From Megamerina dolium (Eukaryota > Arthropoda > Insecta > Diptera > Megamerinidae): a DNA stretch of 64,000 bases. The stretch is from the NCBI GenBank assembly GCA_963854835.1, contig OY978525.1, positions 122,014,240 through 122,078,239 on the forward strand. The letters are read 5' to 3'. Positions 11,630 through 63,358 of this stretch are shown piece after piece; within the stretch, counting starts at the first letter, position 1; every line of letters begins with the position of its first letter. The notes under the pieces were generated by a model, which saw only the letters and a program-made list of their open reading frames with translations, was not told the origin of the DNA and searched no databases. Made by a program: the position numbers and the translations under genes.

Positions 11630-12047
11630 AGCAATTATTCAAGCGAGAATGTATTATGTCTGCTGTCTGAATAAGAAACTTTCACTTTTCTTTGCATTAT
11701 TTATGCAAAACACGTGAGATGGTGTAATCGTATTAGGGCAAAAATCGTGCTTTTTTCAGATTTTGTGTGTTTTTTCTTTGATTTCGAATAAAATTATTGC
11801 ATCTAACTAATTGGTATAAGCAGGTACTTACTTATATACTTACGAACACACTTATGAACTTACGTACACAGAAAAAAGCAAATGAAAGCTAATTTATTTT
11901 CAAGCATAATATGTAACAACTTCGTCCTTATGATCTTAGATGTATAGGAAAAAGCAAATGAAAACTTAATTTAATCTCCAATATTTAAAAAACATCACAA
12001 TTATTGCATATACATATTTAATAAATTCGATTTAACATTCTTTTCAG
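11630..12047. other. Intron or upstream sequence of the CUB/LDLa gene
   Basis: It ends in a good acceptor, CATTCTTTTCAG, at 12047. The first coding exon or exons (signal peptide) must lie upstream, but I could not find them in the 12 kb available. Confidence 0.6.
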
Positions 12048-12547
12048 ATGTGAATTTTCTGACAAATCCCAATTTTGAATCAATTTGCAATACACCCGAA
12101 GAATATTTTATCGAAAGCGACGGCAAAGAATCTAGTCTTATACTTGAGTTCACTTCGCCCATTTTAGGTGATAAGACAAAATCTTGCACGCGCATATTGA
12201 GTACTCCGGATAATTATGGTTTTATCGTTCGATTGATATTACCCAAAATACGACATGGTCATCATCAGCAGGCCACATCGATTGGAGCATCACCATCATC
12301 ACCACCATCATCAGTATCAGTATCAGCAGCTGCAGCAGCCTCCGCATCAGCATCTTCATTAAGTACTCCACAATTGCAATCGTCATCACCTGTAACATCT
12401 GATGAAATCAATTCGGAGTATACAGATTCTCCGAGCCAAACAAATCCAATGATATCATTTATTGAGAAATTAAATGCGTCGACAAGCACGTTGTCGACTA
12501 TGAAATCGATAAAGACATCAGTTGGACGTACATGTCCTTTAAGTGTG
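12048..12547 (+). CDS. Exon: CUB-like region plus Ser/Ala-rich insert
   Basis: Acceptor TTTTCAG|AT; the exon starts with two bases of a split codon. It ends in phase 0 before GTAAGT. It encodes ICNTPEEYFIESDG, then LILEFTSP, CTRILSTPDNYG and FIVRLILPKI. This is the pattern of a CUB domain: a cysteine, a beta-strand ending in FTSP, a second cysteine, then a P-x-x-Y/G turn. A low-complexity stretch rich in His, Ser and Ala follows and interrupts the fold before the next exon. The GTG near the start is not an initiator; the acceptor decides the boundary. Confidence 0.85.
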
Positions 12548-18500: not shown

Positions 18501-19565
18501 TTTGCCTATGATGCGCCCACAATACCTGATAATCGCAATAATGACGAGGCGGCCAAAAAGACTCTGAAGAATACGAGTAAGCGACCGCCGTTAATAACAA
18601 ATCAACTCGATACGACAACACTGCGTAAAGTGGATACCAAAGAAATGCTAAATACAACTGTAAGTGGTGCTGGTGCATCGAATGACACAGTTGCTACCGG
18701 CTCCGGAGTCGATGGTAGCACTGAGAGTGGCGGCAACCACCATCGACGTAACTCAACACGTTCTGGTTTAAGTTCGGACCTCTCCAAATACGGGCCCTGG
18801 GGATATCTAATGTTGGGCATGTTGCTATGTGGTGGTGCTCTACTTATCTGTGGTCTATGGGGTAAGTTAGTAGCATCTAATGGGTGAACACACATAGGAG
18901 AAAAGTCGATTGCTTGGGACGGGATTTGGTTTTGGTGCATACAATTTTACTGAACTATAATTTGGTTTACTACTTACTTACTTACTTATGTAAAGATATT
19001 AGTAAACTTTTGGAGAACACATCCTTCATAATTTTTTTTTTTTTGTATTTTATTTTTGTATCGCCTATCGTTCATTCTTAAACAGCTTTTCTACCTTTCT
19101 GCAACTACTCTACTTATTACCACTTTTCATTCGATATCCGTCCCATCTGTGCAAGCACCACTTTTATTTTTGTGTGGTCATCCGTCAGTTTGCATTTGTC
19201 ACTTGAGCTCTTAGATTGAATCCATCCGTTTCATTTCAGCATCTGCTTCACAACATGCGGCGAATAATGAACGCGAAGCTGCCATGCAGGCTAATGTTGG
19301 TGGTGCTGGCTACAATGGCAACAGCATGGAATCGAGTAATGGTGCACCCCCCAATTACGATGAACTGGATCCGCCGCCAGCATACTCTGTGCTATTTCCA
19401 AATCAGAAAGCTGCCTCCAGTGCAACATTAAATTCATTGGCAACGGCAACTGCATCAGCCGCTGTTGCAACGGCCATCACTATGCCATCACTATCTGCAC
19501 AATTTGAAGGGGTTACAGCAAGTAGCAGCGCTGGAAGTGCACATTCCCATCCAGCCATTCAATGA
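12048..19565 (+). CDS. CUB-LDLa single-pass membrane protein with PPxY tail (5' end missing)
   Basis: Four coding exons join in one frame: 12048-12547, 18033-18253, 18308-18861 and 19240-19565, ending in TGA. All introns are GT-AG, with GTAAGT donors. In order the product has a CUB-like region, one LDL-receptor class A module, a linker rich in Ser, Thr and Asn, a transmembrane helix (GYLMLGMLLCGGALLICGLW) and a cytoplasmic tail with PPNY and PPAY. The proline motifs are typical ligands for WW domains of Nedd4-type ubiquitin ligases, which would suggest controlled endocytosis. The domain order resembles the Drosophila CUB/LDLa surface protein Loaf (CG6024), but I cannot establish orthology. 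The signal peptide exon was not found. A role as a cell-surface receptor or adhesion protein is inference. Confidence 0.85.
13165..13281. repeat. Short inverted-repeat element
   Basis: AGTGCGATTAATCAA at the left faces TTGAGTAATCGCACT at the right: 15-bp arms with one mismatch, about 117 bp overall. It is possibly a small MITE. No target duplication was established. Confidence 0.45.
15181..15957 (+). pseudogene. Non-LTR retrotransposon reverse transcriptase relic
   Basis: The pieces follow the C-terminal half of an insect LINE RT. In order they are FRQGDSLSFDLFNLIMEKI, LLAYGDDID (the catalytic YADD box as YGDD), VNEGKTKYLVSTNK, DFVYLGTSINT, RCYFGLSKQLR, ETKATINKSLIMPVLTYV and, after a frameshift near 15700, AWTISNSNERTVGVFERKVL and IRYNHELYDLY. 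Stops and a frameshift show it is dead. It lies in the sense direction within the host gene's intron. The family matches the relics at about 17374-17545 and 45536-46390. Confidence 0.85.
17374..17545 (-). pseudogene. Second relic of the same LINE family
   Basis: On the minus strand TERGFRQ with YSLSCDFFDFI is followed, after frame changes, by GLKVNEAMRKYLASTNKEFR and HLGQHITLK. These match the RT segment RGFRQGDSLS ... GLxVNEGKTKYLxSTNKESR of the copy at 15181. The longer open frame here (17180-17560) is this relic plus AT-rich intron sequence, not a host gene. Confidence 0.7.
18033..18253 (+). CDS. Exon: second CUB half and start of LDLa
   Basis: It begins in phase 0 with FSSHDPHTPQWRVDPC and includes VRLFHGRVRIVWEHG and KLMVTVLGKGDQCRK. 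It ends with two bases of a glycine codon. The cysteines in DQCRK and HQCLK are the first two of the LDLa module finished in the next exon. The open frame extends upstream into the intron, but the acceptor sets the start. Confidence 0.9.
18308..18861 (+). CDS. Exon: rest of LDLa, linker, transmembrane helix
   Basis: The split glycine is followed by DEPILCISKDLICDGIRHC, then DSDED and AMC. This gives the remaining four LDLa cysteines and the acidic calcium-binding cluster (D..C..DSDED). The linker holds several N-x-S/T sites (for example NTSK, NDTV, NSTR). Near the exon end YGPW precedes about 20 hydrophobic residues, the membrane helix. The exon ends with one base of the next codon. Confidence 0.92.
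18862..19239 (+). other. Intron of the CUB/LDLa gene
   Basis: Donor GTAAGTTAG and acceptor TTTCATTTCAG. No element or alternative exon is evident. Confidence 0.85.
19240..19565 (+). CDS. Terminal exon: cytoplasmic tail with two PPxY motifs
   Basis: The split alanine codon is followed by SASQHAANNEREAAMQ, a glycine/asparagine stretch, then PPNYDELDPPPAYSVLFP and an Ala/Ser/Thr-rich end closing with HPAIQ and TGA at 19563-19565. The two PPxY motifs, spaced by seven residues, are the most informative part of the tail. Confidence 0.92.
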
Positions 19566-27212: not shown

Positions 27213-30200
27213 TTTTTTGTTTTTTTTTTGTTTTTGTTTACTTTTCTTTTTTCAAAAAATAAGGCCAGTGGATACTCTAAAAAATAGATTACTAATATGT
27301 CTAACTATAAGAGTGTGTTTCAAAAATTTCTGGAATAGTGTTCAGTTGGTTTACACACTGGCATTAGAGTGCATTTTAAAGTTTGCACTTTCGCAAAATT
27401 TTTGACACTTTGCAAGCACCAACAAACAATAAAGGTTTGAGGTTATCAAAATGAAATATAAGCCACTCGCAGTCCTTCAATTCCATCATACAAACAAAAA
27501 TGGAGGGAATTGTTATACATATTTCAGTGAAACTTCTTGTTTCAAGTAAATTTCGGATCACTGATGTCAATCCTGAAATCATTATTTATGTAGGCTTTTA
27601 TTTATAAATCAGGTTTGAAAACTTGATTTTTCCCTTTTGGAAGAGCGTGTGGTAGCCAAAGGAGTAGTTCGATTTCTATTAATTTTTTTTAAATAATATT
27701 TTTCCAAAAACAATTCACATCAAAGATGCAAGATACTGGATATACTGCAAATATTGTAATTACAACGACAAAACAAAAAGAGAAAGATAATTATATATCC
27801 TTTAGGAATTTCCTTTGATATGAGCATAAGCACAAAGCACAAGAGATTATATATTTTTAAATTACAATTTTGTACTATTTAAGTACAAAGGTGCTAAATT
27901 TTTATCCAAAATATACTTTTCGGTTAAATCAAAATTAACTTTTGTTTTTAGCCAGTTTATTTTAGCTGGTTTTGACTAAAATCTGATGGTTTCTTGATTT
28001 TAGAATGTTTGAGCTCTAAAATGCTATAGCAATTTCGTTTTTCTTATATTGAATTTGAAATAATAATGATGTAAATTTGACACACACACTCTAATGCAAA
28101 TGTGTTATTCTTCGTGTGGCCAGCATTGTTCTAGATCACGCAGCAAAAATAACAATTTCACTAACAATTTTGTGCGGAAGGTGGGCGTGTCTGTCGCTGA
28201 AATTTACTCAAACTTATATTAAGTATATTCTTTTACTGAATTTACTGAATTCTGAATTTTACTGAATTCCAAAAAAGTAAATTTGTACTAATTTTGGTAA
28301 ACATTTTTGTATTTTTTTAACAACACGTTTGCGATGACTTCCAAAGGGGTGGATGCGTTTTTGCTGCTTTAGGGAAAAGATCTTGGGAAGTGGGCGTGTC
28401 CATGGATGGAATTTCCGAAATTTAGGTATATGATTGATATAATCTGAAAAATATGTGCAATAATTTCCAAAGCTCTAGTTCTCTGTTTTATTATTTAAAT
28501 ATTTATAATAACGTAGATATATATCTCCATTTCTTACTATTAACTATTGACTACTACTAACAAAAAAAAAAAGGACCTATTCCACTTTCAAAAATAACAA
28601 CTGATATGTTATTATAGAGGATTAGGGATTTTTTAAACTAATATTTGGTTGATTGGATAGTCATTTTTCTCTGCTAATTATATGATAGTGTTAATGAATC
28701 GAATGGCAAAATCGGTTTCAAATTTTTATTCTTGTACTTACATCACGGCCTTCTTCGTGACTTTAAAATTATATAAAATAACATCCTTAGTTCCATTTAT
28801 CCACATTTCAAACTCATTCCTTTTGCTTATTGAGATTTTTAACGTGGGTATTGAAAGATTGAGATGTATACTTTACTCTAGCCTACAAATGGAATTCTCT
28901 AAAATTTAATAATTTCATACTAATTACGATTAACCAAAAACCTAGATCTGCTGTATCCAATATTAAACATTCAGAAAATGGTGTAATCTATTTCTGTTTA
29001 ACAGCAAAGAGTAAGAAATTATTTATTACTACTAGTTATCATACTGATTTCACATTTCTTTCTTTTATGAAATTTATTAATTTCAAAGCTATAGCGAGGA
29101 CAAGAGGATCAAGAATAGTGAATTTAAAGTCGAAAAAGCCACAAGAAACTAGACCACAAAAGATGTCTGATGACCAGTCATAAATCAGACAAGAATTAGC
29201 CCACTAGCTTTGTTGTTTGTTGGTGAAACGCGAAGTGTCCGTAGTGGTGAAGGCCTTGAAATGCACACCGATCTCCAGTCCGAAAACTTTTGTATCACAC
29301 TGTAGGTATATGCTTTATGGTGATACATATATCTATATACATAACTGCATATATTCTAAGGTATATGGTTGTTGTTGTTGTTTTAGCAGCAACAACAGGT
29401 ATGCGGTGTTGCAATTATTCAGTATGGTAAATATTTTTTATTGTTTTTACTTGTCTAGTTGCGTTAATAGTACTTACTTAATTCTTAAACAATTTAAGTA
29501 GTATACAGTATTTGATTCACCTAATTCGATACATTTCTTCTTTTAACATTTAATATTCACCATGTGCTAAACATACAAGGTGCTGCAAAAGTTGTATTTT
29601 ATAATCAGTATAAGTAATGGAGTTAAAAACGTGTTTTATTTGTGAAAAATTTGAGATAATATTTTTTGTATAGAAAACGTACTGGTTTATTTTAATGTTT
29701 TTTTTTTTTGCTGCTTTTGTTTTTAATAGAAAATATTTAATAATAGTTTTTTTTTTGTACGGTATAAAAAATATGTAAAAATGTTAGCTCTCCATCGTTT
29801 GGTTTGAAAAAATGTTTATCTGAAATTTATTATTGATATTCTTATTCTTGATTAGTTCTGTTAAAAATTCCATAAAATTTTTCTTGTTGTCTTTAAAAGG
29901 TCTTAATAAGAAATAACTCATTAGAGGGGATTATTGTATTTAATGACTTAGAATTAGTGGAATATATTGTCAAAGGAAAAAAGGATAATAATTAGTGAAA
30001 TGATGTGCTATTATATGTACGTATGTATGTATCATAACTTACATTATTATTACAATTACATTTATTAATTTTAAGTTTTCTATTTTTGATATTTGATATT
30101 GATGAAAATTTTGAGCGCATTTCGTAAGACAAGTGTGTTTTATTTATGTTGAACGATTTCCAGTACTTTAGAATAGTTTTCGAGGGAAAGTAAACGACAA

Positions 30201-31200
30201 AAGTAATCCGAATTAAAAAAAAGCGCTGTGTTGGCTTGTTCTTTATCACCTGGTGCATGAGGGAAAACAAAAAAAAATGTATCCAAAGAAAATTTCCATG
30301 GAAAATAATTGAATTCTTAACTAAAATATGGATGGATATATAATCCAACGAAGACTTCATTCGAAATTTCGTCAAAATATCTCTACATTTCTCCACGATA
30401 TCTTCCGAAGAAAAAAATTTTTGTGGAACAAAAAAAAATTAAAAATAATAAATTTCCACATAAAAATAAGTGAAAATAGAAAAAAAGTGTACAGTACACT
30501 GACAAAATAATTATAAAATTCTGTTATTTTCAATTTACTCTTGCTCAATTAACGACTTGTAAATGAAAGTGTATTTTTTACCACCAAAACCAATAATGCT
30601 TCAATCGAGTTGTGCAAATACCAGACCATTCTGGAAAAATTCCGAGAGTGTTTATCAATTATGAAACAACAACTTAAACAAGCCATCCTTAATACAATAC
30701 TGATATCAAAAGTTTAACATTGTCTCACTGTGTAATTTTTCTTGAAGGTTTCTGCTGTTAAATTCGATTGATTTGTTCATATTTGGAATTAGAATACCTG
30801 ATAACATTCAAAAGTTTTGGGCTTTTTGGAACGTACCCGCAATAGTCAACTGAATTTATCGAATACACGACCCAAATATAGAAATATAGAACGTATATGA
30901 AAAAAGGTCAAATACTTGTAAATTAGAAATCGTTCCAAATTGTGATCTTCATACACGAAATACTATAAATTCTCAAAACTACACCGGAAATAATACCAAA
31001 AAGGTCAAACAACTCTCCGAAGCATATTTTACTCTGGATAATACTTCATTTAATGTTGAAATATCTCTGTTTAAAAAACGAGAATGTCCAAGCGTTATTC
31101 AAGGGGATGCGGTTTCAATATAAAAGAAAATGAGGTGAACCAAAACAGTAATAAAACTATCCTCATGCACAAGATTGATCAAATATAGTTTCCATAAATT
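27213..31200. other. Intergenic, no gene supported
   Basis: Two GTGGGCGTGTC words (about 28182 and 28391) sit in slightly GC-richer sequence and may mark an old repeat. A TTGTTGTTGTTTTAGCAGCA hairpin lies at about 29370-29398. The frame at 29992-30396 lacks motifs and splice flanks. Confidence 0.45.
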
Positions 31201-31369
31201 CTGTACGTCCATAAATGATTTTAATACTTCAAGTGTCATCGTTAATTGGCAAAGGCGACACTATTTGCATGGATAAATTTCCAGCAGCTCCAATGTCGAA
31301 TTTGTTTGTTTTATATTTTGTTGGCCTTCTTCAACTTCAAAAACTGTTTCCAGTGGTAAGGAGTCGTTT

Positions 31370-31448
<79 letters not shown>

Positions 31449-31892
31449 TTCATCGTATATCTCAAAATCATAAGTGAATCATCAGTCCTTGCATGTACAA
31501 TTTCGTGCATGTTACAAGTCTCCCTCACATCATTCTACCAAATATGTATATATGTATTGTATATCTTTGACACTTACTTTTTAGAGCTATATTGATTGAA
31601 TGGTAAACAAGCAGGCTAAACCGGAATTAAACATTTCTACTCAGTTGTGCCGCTTACTAAAGTATAACATTGTTTGATTGATTGATAGAAATAGGGCAAT
31701 GACGACGACTAAGATGATCGATTGATTATACCGATGTTACGATGTATGGAACGCTTGATCCCTTGATTTAAGTTGTGCGTTTGTGTTCCAGAAGCATGCG
31801 CTAGTGCATTTGATTGAATTCGCACGGTGCTACTTTGCAACTTTAACTACAAATGATTAACAACCCCCGTACCACGGAAAGGTCCAGCACCA
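31201..31892 (-). other. Probable 3' UTR or downstream region of the Stac-like gene
   Basis: It follows the final TGA at 31893-31895 and includes the (AT)n tract. No AATAAA was confidently placed on the minus strand, so the transcript end is unknown. Confidence 0.4.
31375..31446. repeat. (AT)n microsatellite
   Basis: About 36 AT units; the Ile-Tyr open frames on both strands here are artefacts of it. Confidence 0.97.
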
Positions 31893-34292
31893 TCAGTGCG
31901 GAAGCATCAACGGTCGTGCAGTGCTGGTCAATTTATGACGCGCTTGTGGTTTCTCGCCATACTCGTCAAAGCAATAGAGTGGTGATATTTTTAGGCCTGT
32001 TTTCTCCGGAATAATTTTAAAATGAGGTTGTTCGGTACTGACAATGAGGGGACGCTTCATCGAATGCATGTACTCGGAATGGGGTGCTCCTAGTGGGCGT
32101 CGTGTGCTTGGCACATTCATTTTCTTACAAGGCTCCGGTTTGGCATCGACATTCATTTGGCAGTTGAGTGGTGAGTACTTGTTGGGTTTATAAATTGAGA
32201 ATATATTGTTGATGAGACTCAATGCAGAATGTCCGCCCGCTGATGGGTGATGTCCTGTGGAGGTCGGCTGTTGTGTCTGTACGTTGTGTTTCGGATAGAA
32301 ATTATTGTATTTATACGAGGGTAACGCGTCTGCGGGAAATACTTTGTGGCCGTAGTTGTAGGAGCGGTGTAAGGGCGAGCCAGCATGTTCAAAAAAATGA
32401 ATGTTACTTACATTGTTGGCACTGGCGGATGAGGTTCCCATCTGTGGCGGTGACGGCATACCTTCTAGCAGTGACTTTTTTATCATCATACGTTCCTGTT
32501 CGCGATCGTGCAAATCGATAGGTTGACCATTGTTGTAACAGCCGACATTTACATTTTTCACCTTCAGATTGCTATGCATGTTGCGGCGCTGCATATCCAA
32601 GTCGATGGGGCTAGGCGGCTTCTCCAATTCCTCCCAGTACTTTTCCAAATCGATATTGAAATCCTCCAAATCCATTTCTGTGGAGTCCGAACATGTGTCT
32701 TCATCATAGCGGCTAGGCGGCTGCACTTCCAAGAGTGATTTGCTACGCGCTGGAGGACGATAACCCGACAAATAGTTTCGACTGCGATTTGCGGCATCAG
32801 CTGCGGACAGGTATCGTTCATCTTCGTCGAGGAATTTGTCCTGTAGCATAAGACGTTCGCGTTCGTCACGTATAAACTGATCCAAGTCGGTGTCATAGAC
32901 GCGACAGTGCATATGTTCCTCCTCCTCGGCCGCGGGATGATGACTTGGACAATGCAGTCGTGAACGTGACCTGGCGATATGGTGCTGCTGCTGGCGGTGG
33001 TAGCAATAGTCTTCGGCGGAACAGCAACATATCATCGTGGGTGGCGGCGGCAGAGGCTGCTCGCATTCACCTTCGCGATGATCGCGTCCTGAGTGTAGCG
33101 AGTAGCGCGTCGCCGTTGCCACACGATGGTTACCAATTCTGTCCTCAATCCAGTCGGTGGCAGCATGCAGGTTTCTGTTGCTTCCGCCACTAGCGCCAGC
33201 ACCATACATACCAACTGGTAAGCCGCGTCGCCACGAACGTCGAGTGCCATTAGTAGGGCCAGCATAGCTGGGATATATTTCGTCTAATAAACATTTGGCA
33301 TTTGTGCATTGATCACGTGCGCAACAGGAATAAGAGTCACGCACATGCGCCAGCGCGTTCTCATCCAGACTGTTGCTGTAGTAATAGCCCATGGACTTGC
33401 GAAAGGCCTCTTGTTTTTCACGACGCGTATTACCCTGCTGCGGTAAATCATAGTCCATAACATCGAAGGGCGTCGTCTTTGAACTGGCACTAAAAGAATA
33501 CGATTTAGGCACACTGGCACGATTCTTTAGTATTGAAGTTGTGCCGATAGAGGAACTTGGTTGCGTCGTCGCTGTTTCCCCTTCATACATGTAACCACCA
33601 AAGCAACAACTATGCGATTTGGGGTAATGAAACTCTTTACAGCTTGTTGAACGTTGCAACCCAAATTCAGTGGAGCCTTCACCCTCACCTCTTCGGCCTC
33701 TAGGTGCATCATCACTACCGCCGATACTATCAGTGACGAAAATCTCGTCCTGTTCGCGGATGTTACGAAGTTTCTTGTATGTGCTGTATTTAATGCAATC
33801 GGGTATGTAGTCCTCATCTAAATCCTCCGAGCGATTCGAATAGATATTGTCCGTATACCAAGTGGAATCTAATTGTTTCGGTTTCGGTTTAGCCTGCAAC
33901 ATTCTGTCACGCTTCGATTGACGATAACTCTCGAAGCAAATGTTTTTCATCCTCTCTAATTTCTGTTCACGAATGCGCTCCCAATTTTCCCAATTTTTAT
34001 CATTTTTATTTCGACCACCATAACCGCCAAAGAATCCATTATTATTCAATGTATAATCGCCCCCATTATAATCATGGAGGTTGGTATTTTTTGGCTCACC
34101 TCTGGTATAGGTTGTGGTTGTAGTGTTGGTGGCGGTAATTGTATCTTTACTTAAATTATTGTAACTGGTCGTGGTGTTGCCACCGTTTTCGGTGACTACA
34201 ATTCTTATCCTACGTTTGGTCTTGTCGAGCAACTTCGACGATAGCGACGATTTATGTGGTTTGTCGCGTTCATCAGGCGGCTCTTCTGGCTG
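31893..34292 (-). CDS. 799-codon in-frame extension after the Stac-like TGA
   Basis: Directly after TGA (34295-34293) the frame reads QPEEPPDERDKPHKSSLSSK, then LLDKTKRRIRIVVTENGG, and stays open to TGA at 31895-31893 (last residues ARPLMLPH). It is Thr/Asn-rich at first and then mixed, with KNICFESYRQSKRDRML, DYIPDCIKYSTYKKLRNIRE, EKQEAFRKSMGYYYSNS and ARSKSLLEVQPP. It has no recognised domain and looks largely disordered. Its base composition is clearly richer in G+C than the flanks, as expected of coding DNA. No in-frame ATG or acceptor close to its start offers an easy independent beginning. Readthrough, or splicing that bypasses the TGA, is therefore needed to express it. Confidence 0.75.
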   Translation of the reverse strand, partial: QPEEPPDERDKPHKSSLSSKLLDKTKRRIRIVVTENGGNTTTSYNNLSKDTITATNTTTTTYTRGEPKNTNLHDYNGGDYTLNNNGFFGGYGGRNKNDKNWENWERIREQKLERMKNICFESYRQSKRDRMLQAKPKPKQLDSTWYTDNIYSNRSEDLDEDYIPDCIKYSTYKKLRNIREQDEIFVTDSIGGSDDAPRGRRGEGEGSTEFGLQRSTSCKEFHYPKSHSCCFGGYMYEGETATTQPSSSIGTTSILKNRASVPKSYSFSASSKTTPFDVMDYDLPQQGNTRREKQEAFRKSMGYYYSNSLDENALAHVRDSYSCCARDQCTNAKCLLDEIYPSYAGPTNGTRRSWRRGLPVGMYGAGASGGSNRNLHAATDWIEDRIGNHRVATATRYSLHSGRDHREGECEQPLPPPPTMICCCSAEDYCYHRQQQHHIARSRSRLHCPSHHPAAEEEEHMHCRVYDTDLDQFIRDERERLMLQDKFLDEDERYLSAADAANRSRNYLSGYRPPARSKSLLEVQPPSRYDEDTCSDSTEMDLEDFNIDLEKYWEELEKPPSPIDLDMQRRNMHSNLKVKNVNVGCYNNGQPIDLHDREQERMMIKKSLLEGMPSPPQMGTSSASANNVSNIHFFEHAGSPLHRSYNYGHKVFPADALPSYKYNNFYPKHNVQTQQPTSTGHHPSAGGHSALSLINNIFSIYKPNKYSPLNCQMNVDAKPEPCKKMNVPSTRRPLGAPHSEYMHSMKRPLIVSTEQPHFKIIPEKTGLKISPLYCFDEYGEKPQARHKLTSTARPLMLPH

Positions 34293-37200
34293 TCACACCT
34301 CTTGCAGGTACTTGATTGGGCAATAGCCCTGACGATTGTCAGCCGCACGTACCATAACCATACCATTGACCTCGTCGCCAGTCTACAGTACAAAAATGTA
34401 TTAAAATGGAAATTTAGTTAGTAAAGTAGTAAGTATTGCATCACCAACGATATTAAACAATATGTATTGTCGTAATCAGTTTAATTTACCTGTATAACAA
34501 TTTGGTCCCTTAGTAAAGTCATATTCTCTCCACGTTCGCCATCTGAGACTTGCAGATTGTGTGTTACTTGTAACGGCTTCTCATTGGCATTTAAACGAAC
34601 ACAATATTTTGAAGGAAAATAACCAACACGACCCAGTACTTTACCCTTCCACCAATCGGGGTCTGATGTATCAATGACGGTCACCTAATGTGCGAAATGA
34701 TATAGATAACATATAGATAATAAACCGAGTTTAAATGATATTCTATGTACATTGGAACTTAATTAAGCGAGAGGAAAAGTAATTAGCCATGATTATTTAA
34801 CATATTTAATGAGCGTATTTAATGTCGCACTTTCAAATCGCTTTAGACTCATTTGGGTAAGTATATTCAGAGTATTATAAATATTTTCTTTGTTTTGTAT
34901 TTGCCTTCATTCTGACATAACTTGACTTAATTAACATTCCACTTGTGAGAACGATTTTCAATGAATTTTCACCCGAATTCATATAATTAATTTCACTCGC
35001 TGCTCATTTGCCTTTCAATACACAATAACATGTACCTATGTACATATGAACTAATAATAAAAGTAATAACAATGCACTAAACAAGAGTCAATTTGCACAC
35101 GATATACTATCAGAAGTGTCAACAACTACAAAAGCTCAATTTTACTGGAAAACAAGCTGAACAAAAGAAAACAAAACAATACCACTTTAAGTTGAAATAA
35201 GCGCTAAAATGCCATTGATTCGCAACCGACTAGGTGACACCCATTTTCTTATTGACACTCAATAGTTACAACAACAACGAAAAGAACAACATAATCAACG
35301 ATAATGACGACGCCGACTACGACGGCGACAGCGAATTTGTATATTACAATTTATTTTGATGTAAAGTATGACATTAGCAAGTATGCATGCTCCCTATCTC
35401 TCACTCTGCTTCTCTTATTCGTTTGAATTTGCTCTTTGTTTTGATCAATTACTCAAACGCGTATGGTGTTTGAAACACAAAAATGACATTTTCGCAGTTA
35501 ATAAAAGTGTTCTTTACACCGTTTGTTCTAATTTGCAATAGGTCTGAGCATATTGAAGTTGTAAGTATTACAACCAAATACTCCTCACATCCTAAATCCC
35601 TAACTTCCCAACTGAACAAAATCGTTTATTTTCAGTTTAGGCGAAGTTTTCTTGAAGTATCGCTACTATCGTAAAAAATGAACAATTCTCGAAAGTTTTA
35701 TCTCTAGTGTACCATACTTTTCAGCGAATGTTTCTCGAACTATCGCATATTATTCATTTTATCGAGTGTTTTACGAAGTGTACATTAGGCATATGACTTT
35801 TCAACTTTTTTGAAAAAATTAAATATACAATACCATTTCAAGAAAATTTTTCAAAAATCTCCCGCAGGAATCAAATTGAAAGATTGGAACCCTATCCTAC
35901 TGTCAAAGTAGGAGTAAAATTATCAGATGACTGCACCATTCCGGCCATAGGGCATAGCATCGGGTCGCTCTGCAGCAGCATCAATAGCTTTATTGCCGAT
36001 TTATCTCGATTCTTTTAGATCGAGAAATCTTATACTATCACCTGAAAAGTCTACTGCGACGGTCTTTACAACTTGGCCCAGAGAAGAGAAGACAACGCTC
36101 AATATTTTTGTATATAAGTACTAATGTACTTATATACATTGTAACTACTAAAGAGCTGCTCAAGCACTATACAAATCATTAGCAAGCCATCAGAACTCAT
36201 TTAAAACACTGACTTTCTCATTCTCTCGTTTTGTTAAACAAAAGCTATAGTGACGAAAGGTTTTGACATTGCAAAAGAAATGCTGCACGAACGGCAATAG
36301 GACAACAGAACAAAACTGAAAAAAAAAAACAAACTGAAGTAGAAGTCAGATTTGCTTTTCTTTTTATTTAATTTTTACTTACATTCAATCTATTAATTTT
36401 TTTGTCTTGGCGTTCACTGCAAATTGCTTGGCTTGCCGCTAACTATTGCTTACGCTAACTATTGCCTACTCGCAGTGCCTGCTATGATTTACGGTTACTT
36501 TACTTCCCTATTTTGTTTTGCTTTTAGATTTTACTTTAGCACAGAACACAAGCAGTATCATCGTTGCAGCAAAAGCTTTTTCAAATGATGCTCTGTTTGT
36601 TTTGTTGCTAAGTTTTACTTGAAATCTTTTGGTTTGGCATCAATTGCATTGAAATATAGTGCTTGGTAGTACTGTGTAGTAGTGAAGTGTGGCTTTTAGA
36701 AGGTCTTGCGCAGCTCTTTAGTATGTACTTATATGTTCACGCTTACCTTGTAACCAGCTTTCAGGTCAAGTTCATCAGCATGACGCGCCTTAAAGTTGTA
36801 CAAGATTACATACAAATTCGTTGGCAATAAACGGTGAGATTTCTATGAAAATTATTACAAATAATAATATATGTATTAATATATCTTTTCGTTTTTTTAC
36901 TAAAAATTGTTCTATTCTCTAAGGAAGAAGCAATAATAGAAAACTGAATTAATGAATATATAAATAATGCCCATCCAAAAAAAAACCACGACAAAATAAA
37001 TGTAAGTACGTAGAAATACTAACAATAACAAAATGCAAATTCAATTAACTAAACAAAGCAAAAACACAAGCAAACAACAAAAACTAAATATCATCTTCTT
37101 ACCAGATGACTGCATGTCTGTGGCGTTTCTCGTAAAATCCAGAAAGAAACCCGTACCGAACAATAATATGTTAAATATTAAATATGAACGCCGTAGAACA

Positions 37201-40200
37201 AAGAAGAAGAAAAAACACAAACAAACAAACACAAAAAAAGATGCAAATAATATAGAAAAATAAAAAATGCCTGAAATTTTCTTACGGGTGATGGGCAGGG
37301 CGATGTACTCGCCGATGATTGCGATTTCTCCATTTCATCCGGTAGATCAACACTACCGCCACGCATGCCACGACTGGCATATAGAAGTTTACGTCCCTGA
37401 TGGGAAGGACTCGATGGTGCTGCAAATGTACGTCAAAATGCGTTGGGTTAATGTGGTTATATGATGTGTATGGATGTGCGTGTGTGCGAGCGTGCGTACG
37501 TGCTTGAGTGCGAGGAATGGAACAGGAATCAAATGTTGACACAGCATGTGTTGTAAATAGCACACAGAGGTAAAATTATAAAGAGAATAGCAGAATGAGG
37601 ATTTGCTTTAACAACAGGAAGGCGACAAAACAGAAAATCAAATGTTTGGGTTTATTTTCGTATTATATTTTCTGCAGGTACTTCAAAAATATTTTCGGTA
37701 TGTTATTATTTTTGATCAATTCTTAGCAAAGACAAACGAAAACATTCAACGAAAATGAAAAGATAATATTGTACAAAAAAAAAAAAAAAAATTAAATAAA
37801 ATAAAATACAATAAAATGAAAGCGATTGAAATTGAAAAAGTATCGCTTTGAGAATTTCACACTAGAGTTCATACAAGTCTAAAATATACGACGGATTTGG
37901 AATGAATTAGAAATTTTTGCAAAGTATTGTATGTAGGTATTTCTTTTATTTTATTTTTATATTTTTTTATTGTTGTTTTTGTGACTAAAGTTCATAACAT
38001 ATGTCAAAATTAAGCAAAAACAAAAAAAAAACGCTACAAATAATGGAACGCAAATTGTTGGAATTATGATTACTATGTATATGTAGAGATGCAGAATTAT
38101 TAAATCAACACTAAGTTACATAAAGTACTAGAATATATATAGGAATTTTTTACTAGTCAAATTAACCAACTACCTACTTGTTCTACTAATTATAAATACA
38201 GAAATCTATGTAAGAATTTGTATACTTTTTACAAAACAATATTTAGAATTGATTCAGTTCAGCAAAAAATATATATATTGGGTGTTCATATATATTATAT
38301 ATTAAATGATTTTCCTTGAAGGTGTTTAGGTGAGGTTAGTGTGATCAAATTGAGAATTGAAAATGGGAATTTTGAATGCAGGAAATCAGGAGGTTGACAA
38401 TGTCAACCTGGAATAATTGGGCTAAGGTATTCAGTTGGTAGTGTTCTAGGAATTTCTTGCGACTATTATATAATGCTGGGCAGGTGCACAGCAGATGTGA
38501 GATTGCTTGAACCTCTTTACCTCTGCAGTTTCTGCAGAAGTTAAATCTAATATCACAGCGTGTGGACCTATGAGGCAGTGGCAAGTGACCCCTGCCACAT
38601 AAGTCGAAATGTCTACTCGATTAAGATCAGTAAGCTTACGTCAAAGCGTTTCTTAATATGTAAGGGCTACGGCGGCTTCTCCGTTTACATATGGCTACAT
38701 CTGTTCATCTATTCTGGAAGATATCGGATTTGATAACCTCCAAACTTCGATTTCACGTTGCTATGGGATCCCTAAACAAGCATCTCGATAAGAGACCTCT
38801 GGCAGCCTTACTGAAAGCTCAGTAACTCAGTATGTAAATTTCTCTATGGAAGACAGTACCTTGTTTAATCTAATTTAGTGCAGTTTGAATAGCTTTTACT
38901 TCTGCCTGAGACACACTACAGTGGCCATAAGGAATGAAATATTAACGTAGGATTTATCCGAATTTATACCTGCTCCCAATCTTTCAATAAGATTAGAAGT
39001 ATATTTCAGTGCACTTGTATATATATGCTCAAATGACTTTGATGTCCATTGATGAGTCGTAATGTAGAGTTGGTCGCCAACTTCACTTCTTGCTTCTTTT
39101 CTAACTCACGAATCAACTGAACAAATAGATTTGTATATTTATTTCCACGAAATTTCAAGTTTTCACGATTGTTCAGCTACTACTAATGTACACGTGCAAA
39201 GAGCATATAGTCTTCCAATATCAATGATATTTCGGCACAATGACTACATTTAATGAACAGAAACAATTACATATAAAAATGCCTTAGAGATATGTATGAA
39301 CGCAGAACATATATATATATTGAACAACTTGAATGAGATGCAAATGTTGTCCCATTAGTTCAGGCAAAAGCAGAAAATACCATCGTGCCGCAAAAATCAA
39401 AAGGCTATTAACGATTCACAGGTGTAGGTACATATGAGTACTGTACTGCATACGTGCTGACAACAATGCACAATTTATTTCAATTTATGAGAGTACACAA
39501 TAAGATTTTATAAAGATGATAGATTAATTTAGAACCAATTTGTTTTTTAAAACAAATAAAGTTCAGGAGTTTCAGCATTAAATATTTATTGCAGGTCATT
39601 TGATAGTGTGATTTTTTCTTGGCAACAGAAGGGCTCATGAATGTACATAAAAATACATTTTTTAAAGCTAAAGTTAAACATTACAGAATTCCATTCTTAG
39701 AAGTAAAGCATCGAAAAGTACCGATTCCGAAATTTCACTAAATAACTTGTTCATACTAAACGGAGTAATGTTAATTCAGGCTCGACTGTAGTATAGACGC
39801 TACTGAAATAATTATGGAGTATTATCGAAGATATCGATTGAGATTGTCGTTTTGTTGTGAGAAAATCGTTCTTAATTGTTTCTTAATAATGCTGTCACAC
39901 AGTGGTTGAAGGAAGTGAGTCCCAACAGGTTTAGAAATAGATCACACAGATGTAGCAATAATAAAATATTGCGTTATGACGGAAGTGTCATCGGAAGTAA
40001 TTAGTCGCACTTCGGAGATAAAACGTAAGAGTATATTTTTATTTTTTGTTGTTCAGGATAGGGTATTAGAGGGAATATTTTAGATATCGATATGTATTCA
40101 TACATAAATGAATATACGATGTGATTGTGTAGTTGTGTGCAAACGTCCAGTGGGAAAGCACGTCACCAATCGCAAGGGATGAGGTAAGCAAACATCCCTT

Positions 40201-40732
40201 CTCTCAAAAGATCAACCTAAATTTTTCCATTTACCTGCTAATAAGTTAGGAAATACCAAATTGAATAATTGTTTTTTATTCTGTTTTTGAAATTGCATTT
40301 GTGACATTTTACCAAACACTATTAGAATTAATGGAATTTTCTTCAAGAAATTCTTGAGTTGATTTTGATAACGAGCTACTTACTTTCCCACTGTATAGGT
40401 GATTCTGTGCGACTCTGTATGAGTATGTGTGTGTGTGTGCCTTTTTTGCAATGAATGAATGTTCTCTAAAACTACTTACAATGCAAGCGACTGTTATTTG
40501 ATGGCGGTGTACTGTGCTCCAAGTGTCCACCTGAGCCGCCACTGCCACCGCCGCCGCCACTGATATTGCCGCCACCACCATGATAATATCCAACTGATGA
40601 TGGACCAGCTACAGGTCGGCGTCTAATTTGACCATGCATTTCAGATGATTCGGGTGAATCCAAACTTAATGATTTCATGCGTAAATTTAATTTTTGACGG
40701 CGTGGCGAGTGTGGAGCTATTGTTGAGTACAT
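31893..40732 (-). CDS. Stac: Stac-like tandem SH3 adaptor, with in-frame readthrough extension
   Basis: Five minus-strand exons join without a frame break: 40480-40732, 37286-37419, 36747-36842, 34490-34684 and 34293-34382. They give 255 residues from the ATG at 40732 to TGA. The first SH3 spans exons 3-4 (LYVILYNFKARHADELDL, then DPDWWKGK and GRVGYFPSKYCVRL). The second, divergent SH3 starts in exon 4 (LLRDQIVIQ) and ends in exon 5 (GYCPIKYLQEV). The WWKGK...G.FP block, followed by NEKP and a weak second SH3 ending near the C-terminus, is the Stac family pattern. Stac proteins bind and promote trafficking of L-type calcium channels. After the TGA, 799 further in-frame codons run to 31893. 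The C1 domain usual in this family was not found. Gene identity is by motif, not by search. Confidence 0.75.
34293..34382 (-). CDS. Stac: Stac-like exon 5: end of second SH3 and TGA stop
   Basis: Acceptor TACTGTAG|ACTGGC. The exon starts in phase 0 and encodes TGDEVNGMVMVRAADNRQGY, then CPIKYLQEV and TGA. Length and content match the end of a Stac second SH3, where the protein normally stops within a few residues. The stop context is GTG TGA CAG. Confidence 0.85.
   Translation of the reverse strand, partial: TGDEVNGMVMVRAADNRQGYCPIKYLQEV
34490..34684 (-). CDS. Stac: Stac-like exon 4: SH3 core
   Basis: The acceptor is TTTCGCACATTAG|GTGACC and the donor CAG|GTAAAT; both ends are phase 0 (65 codons). 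It encodes VTVIDTSDPDWWKGK, GRVGYFPSKYCVRLNANEKP and LLRDQIVIQ. DWWKG and GYFPSKY are the SH3 ligand-groove tryptophan region and the ALYDY-opposing P-x-x-Y region. An internal ATG-like start is not needed. Confidence 0.9.
34685..36746 (-). other. Intron of the Stac-like gene
   Basis: Between donor AAG|GTAAGC (36746) and acceptor CATTAG (34685). It is AT-rich and no exon was recognised. Confidence 0.8.
36747..36842 (-). CDS. Stac: Stac-like exon 3: start of first SH3
   Basis: The acceptor is TAATTTTCATAG|AAATCT and the donor AAG|GTAAGC; 32 codons, phase 0 at both ends. It encodes KSHRLLPTNLYVILYNFKAR, then HADELDLKAGYK. LYVILYNF followed by ADELDL is the first SH3 strand and RT loop, continued exactly in phase by exon 4. 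It was too short to be listed among the long open frames. Confidence 0.9.
36843..37285 (-). other. Intron of the Stac-like gene
   Basis: Donor CCC|GTAAGA and acceptor TTTTCATAG; AT-rich, nothing else seen. Confidence 0.8.
37286..37419 (-). CDS. Stac: Stac-like exon 2: Ser/Pro-rich linker
   Basis: Acceptor ACATTTGCAG|CACCAT, donor CACCC|GTAAGA. The exon starts with two bases of a split codon and ends in phase 0. It encodes PSSPSHQGRKLLYASRGMRG, GSVDLPDEMEKSQ and SSASTSPCPSP, a phosphorylatable linker like that before the SH3 pair in Stac proteins. Confidence 0.8.
37420..38339 (-). other. Intron sequence, Stac-like gene
   Basis: AT-rich. An (ACGC/GTGC)-like alternating stretch lies near 37470-37510 and a poly-A run near 37777. 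No exon was supported. Confidence 0.6.
38340..38960 (-). pseudogene. Non-LTR retrotransposon relic (RNase H to zinc-knuckle end)
   Basis: Minus-strand pieces are VSQAEVKAIQTA (RNase H, about 38870-38920), GHLPLPHRS-like (a H..G.GHF motif) and CRNCRGKEVQAISHLLCTCP with ALYNSRKKFL, the C-x2-C-x8-H-x4-C zinc motif that closes jockey- and R1-type ORF2 proteins. Frames are broken. It lies inside the intron in the same orientation as the host gene. Confidence 0.75.
38961..40479 (-). other. Intron sequence, Stac-like gene
   Basis: It runs up to the exon 1 donor at 40479. No exon or bounded element was found. Confidence 0.6.
40480..40732 (-). CDS. Stac: Stac-like exon 1 (or internal exon): basic/Gly-rich segment
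   Basis: Donor TTGCATT|GTAAGT leaves one base, which pairs with the two bases opening exon 2. From ATG (40732) it reads MYSTIAPHSPRRQKLNLRMK, then SLSLDSPESSEMHG, RRRPVAGPSSVGYYHGGGG and a Gly/Ser run. Two starts are possible: the ATG, with an in-frame TAA upstream, or a weak acceptor at AACAATAG|CTCCAC (exon upper limit 40716). The second would make it internal, downstream of a C1-containing part. RRQKLNLRMKSLSLDSPE looks like the Stac linker. Confidence 0.75.
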
Positions 40733-43700
40733 TTTATGACGTTATTTGATAATGATGGTTATATTATTTATATACATATTATGTATGAGTGTGTTGTTGT
40801 TGTTGTTGTTTAATATGATGATATTCGGCAAACATTTAGAATGTTTTCAAAGAAAATAGAAATTTTGTAAAAATCAATGGAATTAATTGTTAATTTAATG
40901 TTTTCAAATGACAAATGACTACAACAATAAAACATAACATACAACTACTCAGTACAATTGAATATGTTGACAAGAGCTGGGCGGAAAAAAATTAAACATA
41001 TTGAAACAAAGTATATAGTTTATGTGTAAAAAGAATATATTGAATATTGGAGTGATTTCAAAGTGTTTCTGTATGCGATAAGTGTATAGGTGTGCTGGAA
41101 TATTCAATGATGTAGAATGAAAGAAAAAAATTGTAAATATTGCGACATACACATATGCACTACACTACTGATTGATTTTCTTAAACAACTAAAATTTAGA
41201 AATTGTTCAAACAATTCAAAATATATCTACAGATAACATTAAGGGAAAAAGAAGAAAAAAGAAGAGTGGAAGTGCAAAATGATGAGTGATATTTGCTTTT
41301 AAGTACACCTTCCGTGTTCTCTTTATTACGTCAAAGACTTATAGGTCGATTATCGATTATCGAACCAAACTTCAATTGCTTTGCCAGTTTCCAAAATGAT
41401 AGAGTGCTTATTTGTGCACATTTGTGGTTGCGCTGTAGTATTTTCAAAGCAAAAAAGGAGCGAAAATTAAAAAGTAAGTACAATTTATTATTAAATTATT
41501 AGTAATTTTAACGTTAATGAACTTTTTATAGTATTATTTGTGTCGAAGTTTGGTTGCAATCAATAATCGACTTATTAGTCAAGTAATTTCGCCATTTCGT
41601 TTTGCAATGTGTACTTCTATCTCTCAATCATCGAAATTAATATGCCGAAGGTATTAATCGAAAAGGACTCCAATAACCAGTGGCGGATTTAAGATTTCGA
41701 TTTTGCATTATTATATTTTTCGACTATCACATTTAGGATTATTTAAAACAATGCCGGCCAAACGAATACTAAAACATTTGCATAAGTGTGTATGTCAAAT
41801 GGAGAATGTGCTTCTACAGTGGCTATATAAAAACTCCGAACTGTGAAATGGTGAGCAAGCATTGCAGCATATTGTCGTTTATTAAGTAAAAAAAATTTTT
41901 TTCTGTTCATTGCTTTTTTTAATCATGTGCAACAACATTACGTCGTGTGAAAACACGAAGGCAAATTACACTTTGTGCAACGCTTGGCCGACTTTGATTT
42001 AATACCTTAAAAACCGTAACTGAAAATGTTTTCATAATAAAAACTTGCTTTATCGAATCTTTATAAACAGTTGTTAGATTTACCGCAACACTTAGTCCAT
42101 GGAGCTATAAACCACCCTATTACAAGTATATAGTAAATGTACCGATGTATGTGATGTAATAGAGTTATGATTTTCACTGCTCGATATGGCCACATTTCAG
42201 CATTATACATAGTACCTGCGATACATACATATGTGTGCATAATAAAACTACCATATATTTTAAATCAAAACAAAAATTGTTGTTTTTATATGAATAAGCA
42301 TAGAATTAAAATACTACAGTATGTGTATATACATATAACTACATACACGGGTATATAGATTGATAGTAAAGAATATACATATATGTACTTAATAAATTAT
42401 TTAAAACATTTACACATTTAACGATACAATATATGTATATTAACAAAATATGTTAAAACCAATAAAGTTCATCAATAATTAAAACCAAAATGATTTAATA
42501 TAAAAGTTTATACATTCAACCTTTACATTAAATAAATACAAAAATCAAAATATTTCTTATTTTTTATTTTTGCACTAACGAATAAAAACATAATAATAAA
42601 AATAGCTCTCGAAATATATGTTTTACATATGTATTTTGCATTACTGATAGTTGACTCGATCATTAAGCATTTAAATCTCAAATTTATTATGTACCTAACA
42701 TATCCATATGAGAAAAAGTTATAATTAAAATTACTGCATTAAAAATTCATCATGTAACAATCGGACAGAAAAAAATTGAAACATATTTATATTGCATAAA
42801 ATTGTATGTAGGTAAATATATGGTTACATATTTATTTGTTTTTATTATGATTGTTATAATTTTTTATTTTATTTTATTTTTTGCTACAGAGGCTTTTGTA
42901 TTTGCATTTGGTTTCTATGTGGAAAGTGGATATTTCTGGAGTAAGTACATAAATACCATATAGGTAGACATATAGGAGAAGTTAGGTATTAGTCGAACTT
43001 AAAGAATTATTGGAAAACAAATATTTTCAGCATCCTGATGTAATTTATAGTACTCTGCTTCCGTATACAATCTTGCCAAATCAACTCGCAGTTTGAGTAG
43101 TTCAGCGTTGGCCCATGAGAATTTAGTAACAATTTCAACATGTTTAGTGGGAGGGAAGTGCTTTTTGGTGTTACATAAAAATTACTGCATTTTCCGTAGT
43201 TGGTAGATAATTAAAAAATAATTAGAAACCAACACCATTATGTTTGTTAGAATAGAGCCAAGCGTCATTTACTTGTAAAAAGCGCCAATTATAATTTTCA
43301 TTCATTTTATCGCCAATACAAATTTGTATCAATACTGTTTGCAAATAAATCTGAAGAAGATTCCTAGCTGTATAGCGAAAAAAAATTTGTCAGAGTGTCA
43401 TTGCACAACTCTTCTAAGTACTTAGATCAGGGACCTATTTCATAAAAGCGGCAGGTGGGATAATGACGATTTTTCCGGACAATTTCAGAGCCACAATTGT
43501 TGGCGACATTTTTTGTGTTTCAGTGATAATTGATGGAAAGCGACAGTGACAATACTGGAATATTGTCGACAAGTGTTTGGCAATGGTTCTGACAATTGTA
43601 CTCTGACATAATTGTTGCAACAATAACGACAAAACTAATATCATTTCTATGAATTAGACCCCAGTTATCATTGAGTAAATTGAGTATGTAAAAATGTTTG

Positions 43701-62972: not shown

Positions 62973-63358
62973 CTATGGCGGACCTGAACTACTAGATATA
63001 TCTTGTACGGGCACTGGCAATCCGCCGCGCTGTTGCTGCAATTCCTGTTGTTGCAATTGTACCCCCAATATGGGAACTGGCACTGGTGGTGGTCGTATAC
63101 CACGTCCGGCACGTCCTGCTGCTGCTGCTGCCACTGCTGCCAAACTAGTTGTACCGACAGTACCGCCGCTTCCAATCGCACCACTCCGCTCCGGATAATC
63201 AGGCACATTTACAATGGGAATGTCTTGACCACCGGCAGATTCCAATTTGGAAGGATGGACGGATTTATCAGTTGTTGCTGTAATGTTAGTGTTGTTGTTG
63301 GATTTAAGTTCGCCCGCTTGTTTGAGCACGCGATAAATTTGATCGATATCGTTATATT
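62973..63358 (-). CDS. Terminal coding exon of an unidentified gene
   Basis: The acceptor is TATGCTATCACAG|AATATA. Two bases of a split codon are followed by 127 residues and TAG. It opens with YNDIDQIYRVLKQAGELKSN, continues with SVHPSKLESAGGQDIPIVNV and PDYPERSGAIGSGG, then an alanine run, RPPPVPVPILGVQLQQQELQ and QDISSSSGPP. The first 20 residues look folded and helical; the rest is low-complexity and Pro/Gln-rich. No family was recognised. The upstream exons lie beyond 63359, probably outside the window. Confidence 0.7.

Follow-up and report, generated by a model that had tools for sequence, protein, structure and literature searches.

Introduction

Kelch is the historic case of long stop-codon readthrough. 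In 2015, FlyBase counted 328 Drosophila genes with programmed stop-codon readthrough, whose annotated extensions reach more than 1000 residues (PMC4528330), and an extension of 286 residues after a UAG codon has been described for dfr (PMC8417969). With a CARYYA hexamer 3′ of the UGA, readthrough in one mammalian reporter reached about 15% (PMC4132726), and in flies the readthrough of premature-stop reporters was highest in neurons (PMC7244557). Both muscle and a subset of neurons express the adaptor Dstac (PMC7573238), and flies need it for locomotion and neuropeptide release (PMC8258685).

Here, we analysed a window of 64,000 nucleotides from the Megamerina dolium genome (contig OY978525.1), in which all the features described below lie on the minus strand. 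Comparison with related proteins suggested that partial, programmed readthrough of a UGA codon probably yields a short Stac protein together with a form that carries a mostly disordered tail of about 800 residues.

A Stac gene followed by a long open frame

Judged by protein similarity, the gene is the fly orthologue of Stac (Drosophila Stacl/CG43729, also called Dstac), and three exons in the window are 88-98% identical to named Stac-like proteins bearing SH3 Pfam domains. A possible upstream Stac coding exon at 62979..63269 was recovered weakly by tblastn with P0034 (50% identity, E 3.5e-4; no Pfam match). Clearer exons are located at 40481..40738 (MKSLSLDSPESSEMHG...; tblastn with P0003, P0034 and P0039, 53-68% identity) and 37286..37420 (APSSPSHQGRKLLYASRGMRGGSVDLPDEMEKSQSSASTSPCPSP; tblastn, 98% identity to P0034). 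The first half of an SH3 domain is encoded at 36738..36842 (NLYVILYNFKARHADELDLKAGYK; tblastn, 94-97% identity, with the frame read), and its remainder, plus the sequence after it, at 34490..34684 (tblastn, 95-98% identity); the latter exon gave partial SH3_2, SH3_9 and SH3_1 Pfam matches at E of about 0.001, under the curated cut-offs, the domain being split by an intron. The final part of the SH3 region (34296..34382; 88-91% identity) starts at 34382, directly after an AG, and terminates before a TGA with KYLQEV, the usual end of insect Stac proteins, the listed short forms ending in LQEV. No C1 domain was detected between about 34290 and 64000 on the minus strand, and the gene may begin outside the window.

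The first stop codon, TGA at 34295-34293 (34293..34295), is the proposed readthrough site. It is followed by CAG CCA GAA and, in total, by 799 sense codons (31896..34292), proposed as the readthrough extension from the open frame and protein homology, up to a second TGA at 31895-31893 (31893..31895). The initial annotation had described QEV-TGA, the following CAG, 799 open codons and the second TGA at 31893, and every coordinate was confirmed. The other five frames over the same stretch contain 27, 64, 31, 41 and 27 stops. Under a first-order Markov null derived from the stretch itself, about 38 stops per 800 codons were expected on average, the minimum in 300 draws was 22, and zero stops in 800 codons had a probability of about 8e-18, in agreement with the earlier claim that a random frame of this length is nearly impossible. 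A chance origin of the frame is thus excluded. The G+C content is 0.47 in the tail stretch, 0.29 just downstream and 0.33 in the whole window. The tail had also been said to exceed a 255-residue core; this holds against the portion of the protein then in view, but not against most first open reading frames, as the short Stac forms retrieved from other Diptera (ending in YLQEV) span 581-1410 residues in a search that admitted only about 540-1710.

No domain was found in the tail by Pfam search at E <= 1. An AlphaFold2 model of the Glossina protein P0003, built from a 54-row alignment, had a mean pLDDT of 44, and the tail is accordingly predicted to be mostly disordered with some helices. Its short conserved motifs are best kept near the C-terminus. 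Beyond the second TGA, the frame continues for 11 more codons (WCWTFPWYGGC, 31860..31892) to a TAA at 31859-31857. At this place the tephritid-like protein P0002 reads W-WCWTFPWYGDC, which makes a second readthrough at 31893 possible.

Conservation of the tail and, apparently, of the stop codon

Protein comparison indicated that flies share this tail as a conserved segment. It is 73% identical to that of Teleopsis along its whole length, and homologues numbered 27 proteins in one search and 90 in a tail-only search, with Drosophila, midges and mosquitoes among the matches listed; its spread beyond flies, covered in part, is judged from the best 120 of 483 matches in the search limited to about 540-1710 residues. 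The initial annotation had proposed to examine whether the TGA and the downstream frame are both conserved. At the protein level the frame is conserved from its first codon, since 17 of the first 20 residues past the stop are identical in each of Teleopsis, Lucilia, P0002 and Glossina, and 12 of 20 in D. miranda. Over the first 12 residues, compared without gaps, the window shares 6 with P0160, P0169 and P0178 (Lucilia, 7), and random 12-mer pairs attain 6 in 0.02% of cases; agreement with the window is poor for P0164 (2 residues) and P0166 (4 residues). A pattern scan of genome contigs for the tail gave 32 pattern matches, none of them a relative, and Centruroides P0028 was rejected as a tail relative, being a repeated SH3 model that lacks the tail. 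The tail protein of D. busckii bears the name CG43729, a hint that the gene model of D. melanogaster contains the tail as well; the tail-only search (candidate lengths about 715-2275) gave no match named D. melanogaster, in results where clusters hide members and names are shortened.

The first stop also appears to be kept in several relatives. NCBI labels its tail models for Teleopsis, Lucilia and D. miranda 'partial', and each starts with QPE, immediately past the stop. In the Glossina model YLQE runs directly into PEEPP, so that exactly Val-stop-Gln is dropped as a 9-base GT...AG 'intron', which is too short for a real one. P0002 reads YLQEV-W-QPKE and shares an identical stretch of 30 residues with a Bactrocera latifrons protein whose last residue is the Val, and six further proteins read YLQ[DE]V-W-Q at the junction; in the 12-residue comparison with these six, D. 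miranda has only 1-4 matches and P0002 has 2-5. In these seven relatives the Trp sits exactly at the TGA and would stand for it, a reading taken from the apparent genetic code of the source, with TGG as the alternative. Of the retrieved proteins, 15 combine the SH3 end with the tail: 7 have the W junction and 8 are joined at Glu, and none has a sense codon other than that for W after the junction Val (P0002 judged by eye). Conservation of the first stop is therefore supported, indirectly and at the protein level, by three 'partial' models, one nine-base skip and seven W readings, from which the type of stop is deduced, and the readthrough interpretation as a whole is likewise supported at this level.

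Sequence context and predicted RNA structure of the stop

The claimed leaky TGA-C context is present, and it is fuller than had been stated: the stop reads TGA CAG CCA, and the hexamer CAGCCA (34287..34292) fits the CARYYA readthrough motif (PMC4132726). A stem-loop is predicted at 34224..34286, starting 7 bases past the TGA. The region 34175-34295 had a z of -2.75 against dinucleotide shuffles. Against synonymous shuffles the z was -2.04, which ranks second from the bottom by z among 77 stretches but only 13th by energy, and the folding comparisons point to a modest structure signal past the stop.

These features suggest how two products would arise. The majority of ribosomes would halt at the UGA after KYLQEV and release an ordinary adaptor with SH3 domains. 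A minority would insert an amino acid at the UGA, probably through a near-cognate tRNA and aided by the UGA-CARYYA context and perhaps by the stem-loop, and would proceed through the 799 codons to the long form. Its tail of about 800 residues, largely disordered but containing helices and short conserved motifs, is proposed to bring other partners to the channel complex. Readthrough in vivo, the amino acid inserted and any regulation are inferred from sequence. The high reporter readthrough in neurons, taken with the expression of Dstac in neurons and muscle, implied that the long form may be mainly neuronal.

Alternative explanations for the tail

Alternative splicing is the strongest of the rival explanations, yet we regard it as unlikely. 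Here GAG|GTGTGA would act as a 5′ splice site, possibly a weak donor when its strength is judged against the consensus, and a downstream in-frame acceptor would join the SH3 region to the tail, the unspliced transcript giving the short form. A scan of in-frame AG codons among the first 140 offered, for example, AAG at codon 20, whose pyrimidine content from -20 to -4 (0.59) equals that of the real acceptor at 34382 (0.59) and is near that at 34684 (0.65). The resulting intron of 66 bases would be of normal length for flies. Gene models of other insects are consistent with such a junction: five Anopheles models, along with those of Culicoides (P0165) and of the beetle Phaedon (P0066), look spliced at Glu|Val, and Anopheles P0036 and P0045 skip a larger part of the SH3 end. 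A single Culicoides gene is annotated with two forms, one ending YLQEV and the other reading YLQE-DKNGNLL (P0069, P0165), and in the Phaedon model FLQE-FKQQNGTL leads into a tail that resembles the window's tail at its end (36% identity across 89 residues; E 1e-7, with only seven sequences compared). However, the would-be intron is conserved as protein, at the 17 of 20 residues in four flies given above, and D. miranda lacks an AG codon where the codon-20 acceptor would lie (SSR-TT instead of SSK-L). NCBI gives the Lucilia tail and short form different gene numbers, while its tail models for Teleopsis and D. miranda begin after the stop rather than being joined, which would also speak against splicing. 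Splicing around the stop is less likely, though possible, in the window gene.

It is very improbable that the tail forms an independent protein that has a promoter or start of its own, or is reached through an alternative acceptor TGACAG|CCA. An independent transcript with its own start had been named as an outcome that would count against readthrough; the earliest Met in the tail is residue 115 (98, 102 and 122 in relatives, 59 in P0002) and the segment ahead of it is conserved, which argues against an internal AUG start as the explanation of the tail. For the acceptor, the CAG after TGA would supply the AG, and Q follows the stop in all 11 rows, out of 13 aligned, that include this residue (Glossina omits it and P0005 starts later), but the pyrimidine content ahead is 0.35 against 0.59 and 0.65 at the two real acceptors, and the product would lack the end of the SH3 region.

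A-to-I editing of UGA to UGG (Trp) would suit a gene expressed in neurons and a stop that is TGA here and presumably in the seven W proteins, and therefore recodable; it is rated still lower, as the leaky context would be superfluous and the required duplex over the A is not matched by the predicted stem, which begins 7 bases past the stop. Decoding as selenocysteine is scarcely credible, for although the codon is UGA, an Rfam scan of 29500-34700 found no SECIS element 3′ of it.

Discussion

Readthrough of the first TGA may also have a history in splicing. In a rather unlikely but conceivable scenario, the GTGTGA after LQE would be a 5′ splice site in certain insects (the beetle, Culicoides and perhaps mosquitoes), where splicing adds an old C-terminal tail, whereas higher flies and some midges would have lost the intron and use the six bases as a leaky stop. 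In the latter, readthrough would have inherited the choice between short and long forms; the second TGA would perhaps be read through in some flies.

The Dstac passages of PMC8258685 mention no tail, and a term search in PMC7573238 gave neither 'readthrough' nor 'C-terminus'. In the literature searched, nothing was found that joins stop codon readthrough, Drosophila and Stac, or CG43729 with readthrough, and papers matching both Stac and readthrough were unrelated by title and the start of the abstract. The Stac tail is possibly a new, maybe already annotated, case of the known fly readthrough. If the proposal is true, a calcium-channel adaptor also exists in a long version whose tail, about 800 residues in length, is absent from those Dstac passages, results obtained with short-form constructs would need rereading, and the extension would stand among the long conserved ones. 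If, in addition, the midge-like relatives are placed rightly, it would be old enough for studying how readthrough persists and whether it is able to replace splicing.

In comparison with described systems, the locus resembles Stac/Dstac (Stacl, CG43729) in its last SH3-region exons, which are 88-98% identical to Stac-like proteins of Bactrocera and Stomoxys. With TMV-type readthrough it shares a hexamer after the stop, CAGCCA, that fits CARYYA, whereas that type is known mainly from plant viruses and the present gene is cellular, with a weakly supported stem-loop. Kelch, headcase and drifter/vvl likewise have long extensions, produced by tissue-regulated readthrough, but these are other proteins, whose translation was shown experimentally, whereas the present case is argued from sequence. 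With the Drosophila readthrough genes the locus shares a conserved in-frame open reading frame past a seemingly conserved stop, the TGA-C context, a disordered extension and the lack of a SECIS element; most of their extensions measure 8-300 residues, against 799 here (PMC4528330). The length had initially been called exceptional, which was too strong, as extensions of more than 1000 residues are already annotated in Drosophila (PMC4528330), and the Stac tail would thus belong to a known kind.

Layout of the Stac gene and its open frame

Upstream exons of the Stac gene lie on the minus strand at 40738-40481, 37420-37286, 36842-36738 and 34684-34490, where they match named Stac-like proteins. 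A further, weak match lies at 63269-62979. Against the Stac-like proteins of Stomoxys and Bactrocera, identity ranged from 50% (the weak match) up to 98%, and no C1 domain was found in the scanned part of the window. The last exon starts at 34382 and reads TGDEVNGMVMVRAADNRQGYCPIKYLQEV up to a TGA at 34295-34293, followed by CAG CCA GAA, and the same frame stays open for 799 codons (the tail) until a second TGA at 31895-31893, as the initial annotation had described. Its view that chance could hardly produce such a frame was borne out by a probability of no stop of ~8e-18 under a Markov null from the stretch itself; the remaining five frames each contain 27 to 64 stops.

Elsewhere in the window, two plus-strand open frames of ~200 codons (11975-12580 and 18297-18887) look coding by eye, the second being Cys-rich with a hydrophobic C-terminal stretch, and neither has a Pfam match at E <= 0.01. 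A weak Pao retrotransposon peptidase match at ~54298-54477 (minus strand; Pfam E 3.6e-4, under the curated cut-off) is perhaps a decayed element, and microRNA matches below the Rfam threshold, present on either strand at 31368-31447 towards the gene's 3′ end, probably reflect a simple repeat of TA type.

Conservation of the tail as protein

In a protein search with the 799 tail residues, 27 proteins passed E <= 0.001. Teleopsis came first (73% across the whole length), and the others included Lucilia, many Drosophila, Megaselia, Bactrocera and a Glossina protein that bears SH3 domains as well. A tail-only search over a different length range returned 90 proteins, among them those of Anopheles, Culicoides and gall midges as well as many others. 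The best-conserved pieces in a 54-sequence alignment include STWYTDNIYSN, TEMDLEDFNIDLEKYWEELEK, LINNIFSIYKPNKYSPL, HFKIIPEKTGLKISPL and STARPL, and no Pfam domain matched the tail. The AlphaFold2 model of the Glossina protein P0003 (mean pLDDT 44; mostly disorder, some helices) is in line with the proposal that the tail would be mostly disordered.

The first stop in relatives

Judged from protein sequences, the first stop seems to be conserved in relatives as well as the tail. For Teleopsis, Lucilia and D. miranda, the public tail models carry the label partial and start at the codon after the stop, with QPE. The Glossina model omits precisely Val-stop-Gln, presumably as a modelling device to get past the stop, since 9 bases from GT to AG are too few for a genuine intron; the Anopheles models, which disagree among themselves, may be similar devices. 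Across 30 residues the tephritid-like protein P0002 is identical to a protein of Bactrocera latifrons ending at the junction Val, and it shares 93% identity over 378 tail residues with another B. latifrons protein; its junction reads ...YLQEVWQPKEPP..., continuing beyond the Val where the B. latifrons protein stops, and its C-terminal end is PPHWWCWTFPWYGDC, where 25 of the 27 tail-search proteins finish in PH. Six further proteins (P0160, P0164, P0166, P0169, P0176 and P0178) read YLQ[DE]VWQ at the junction, and we take them to be nematoceran midges solely because their SH3 end is like that of Diamesa. A Trp in precisely the position of the stop would be expected if the source translation read TGA as W, a code that we infer and that is not stated.

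In a census of 181 retrieved proteins, 98 bear the C-terminal motif searched (P0002, with a variant motif, falls outside them). W stands at the junction in 6 of the 98, 3 start with QP, 8 have the SH3 end joined at Glu (Glossina, five Anopheles, Culicoides and Phaedon), 77 begin with M and carry no SH3 end, and the remaining 4 are other Anopheles models. None of the 15 proteins with both SH3 end and tail passes the junction Val by a sense codon other than W; the lone flagged exception (P0165, Culicoides sonorensis) was a match elsewhere in that protein.

Readthrough and its alternatives

Splicing at Glu/Val could bypass the stop by joining the SH3 end to the tail, and we consider this unlikely. 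The main point against it is that the would-be intron is conserved at the protein level. Over the first 20 residues after the stop, Teleopsis, Lucilia, P0002 and Glossina each have 17 residues identical to the window, and D. miranda has 12; residues 41-100 are mostly less similar than these, and residues 101-160 equally similar or more. Over the first 12 residues, ungapped, the window matches P0160, P0169 and P0178 at 6 positions, P0176 at 5, P0166 at 4 and P0164 at 2, and against the same six proteins Lucilia reaches at most 7, Teleopsis 6, P0002 5 and D. miranda 4; among 200,000 random 12-mer pairs, 6 matches occurred in 0.02% and 5 in 0.08%. Conservation from the first codon after the stop makes the stretch hard to explain as an intron.

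On the other side, GAG/GTGTGA is a possible weak donor in the window, and among in-frame AG codons up to codon 140 the best candidate acceptor is AAG at codon 20 (66-base intron). The pyrimidine content before it is 0.59, equal to that of the acceptor which the exon uses, so that pyrimidine content alone leaves room for splicing; CAG/CCA is preceded by just 0.35. The tail, or its C-terminal end, also occurs outside higher flies, in gene models that link the SH3 end at Glu/Val as if spliced. A single Culicoides gene has one form that ends in YLQEV (P0069) and another that continues as YLQE-DKNGNLL (P0165), and the model of the beetle Phaedon cochleariae (P0066) reads FLQE-FKQQNGTL leading into a tail whose end is 36% identical to the window tail over 89 residues (E 1e-7, in a comparison against seven sequences only). 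These forms suggest that part of the tail is older than Diptera and in some insects may be spliced on at the same Glu/Val.

An AUG start within the tail cannot yield the segment before residue 115, which is its first Met. No SECIS element was found in an Rfam scan of 29500-34700.

Readthrough of the UGA, the probable explanation, finds the leaky TGA-C context that had been pointed out, and TGA-CAGCCA fits the readthrough-promoting hexamer CARYYA, for which ~15% readthrough after UGA, below CUAG, is reported in one mammalian reporter context (PMC4132726). The RNA from the TGA onward folds with a z of -2.75 against dinucleotide shuffles and -2.04 against synonymous shuffles, the second lowest z among 77 stretches yet 13th by energy, which is only suggestive of structure as a readthrough aid.

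The second stop

The TGA ending at 31893 is followed by 11 codons, WCWTFPWYGGC, and then TAA (31892-31857, minus strand). P0002 has WCWTFPWYGDC at the same place, alike at 10 of 11 positions against 68% identity of the whole tails. After ...RPLLFW, P0160, P0164 and P0169 carry W and then L[LI]..[TA]AKGILWD; P0166 finishes shortly after its W, and P0178 differs. From the two fly sequences compared, double readthrough in some lineages, or a conserved untranslated (3′ UTR) element, is possible. Double readthrough is reported for 22 Drosophila cases (PMC4528330).

Comparison with known readthrough genes

Programmed readthrough is indeed documented in many fly genes, with 328 listed in FlyBase in 2015, and the extensions span 4 to >1000 residues (PMC4528330), which weakens the claim that 799 residues would be exceptional. 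Our literature search found no report of Stac readthrough; gene lists sit in supplements outside that search, so the form may already be annotated. The interest of the case lies in the length of the extension, its probable age and the gene concerned. Ancient cases common to Drosophila and Anopheles are described as enriched for TGA (PMC5100048), and Stac likewise uses TGA.
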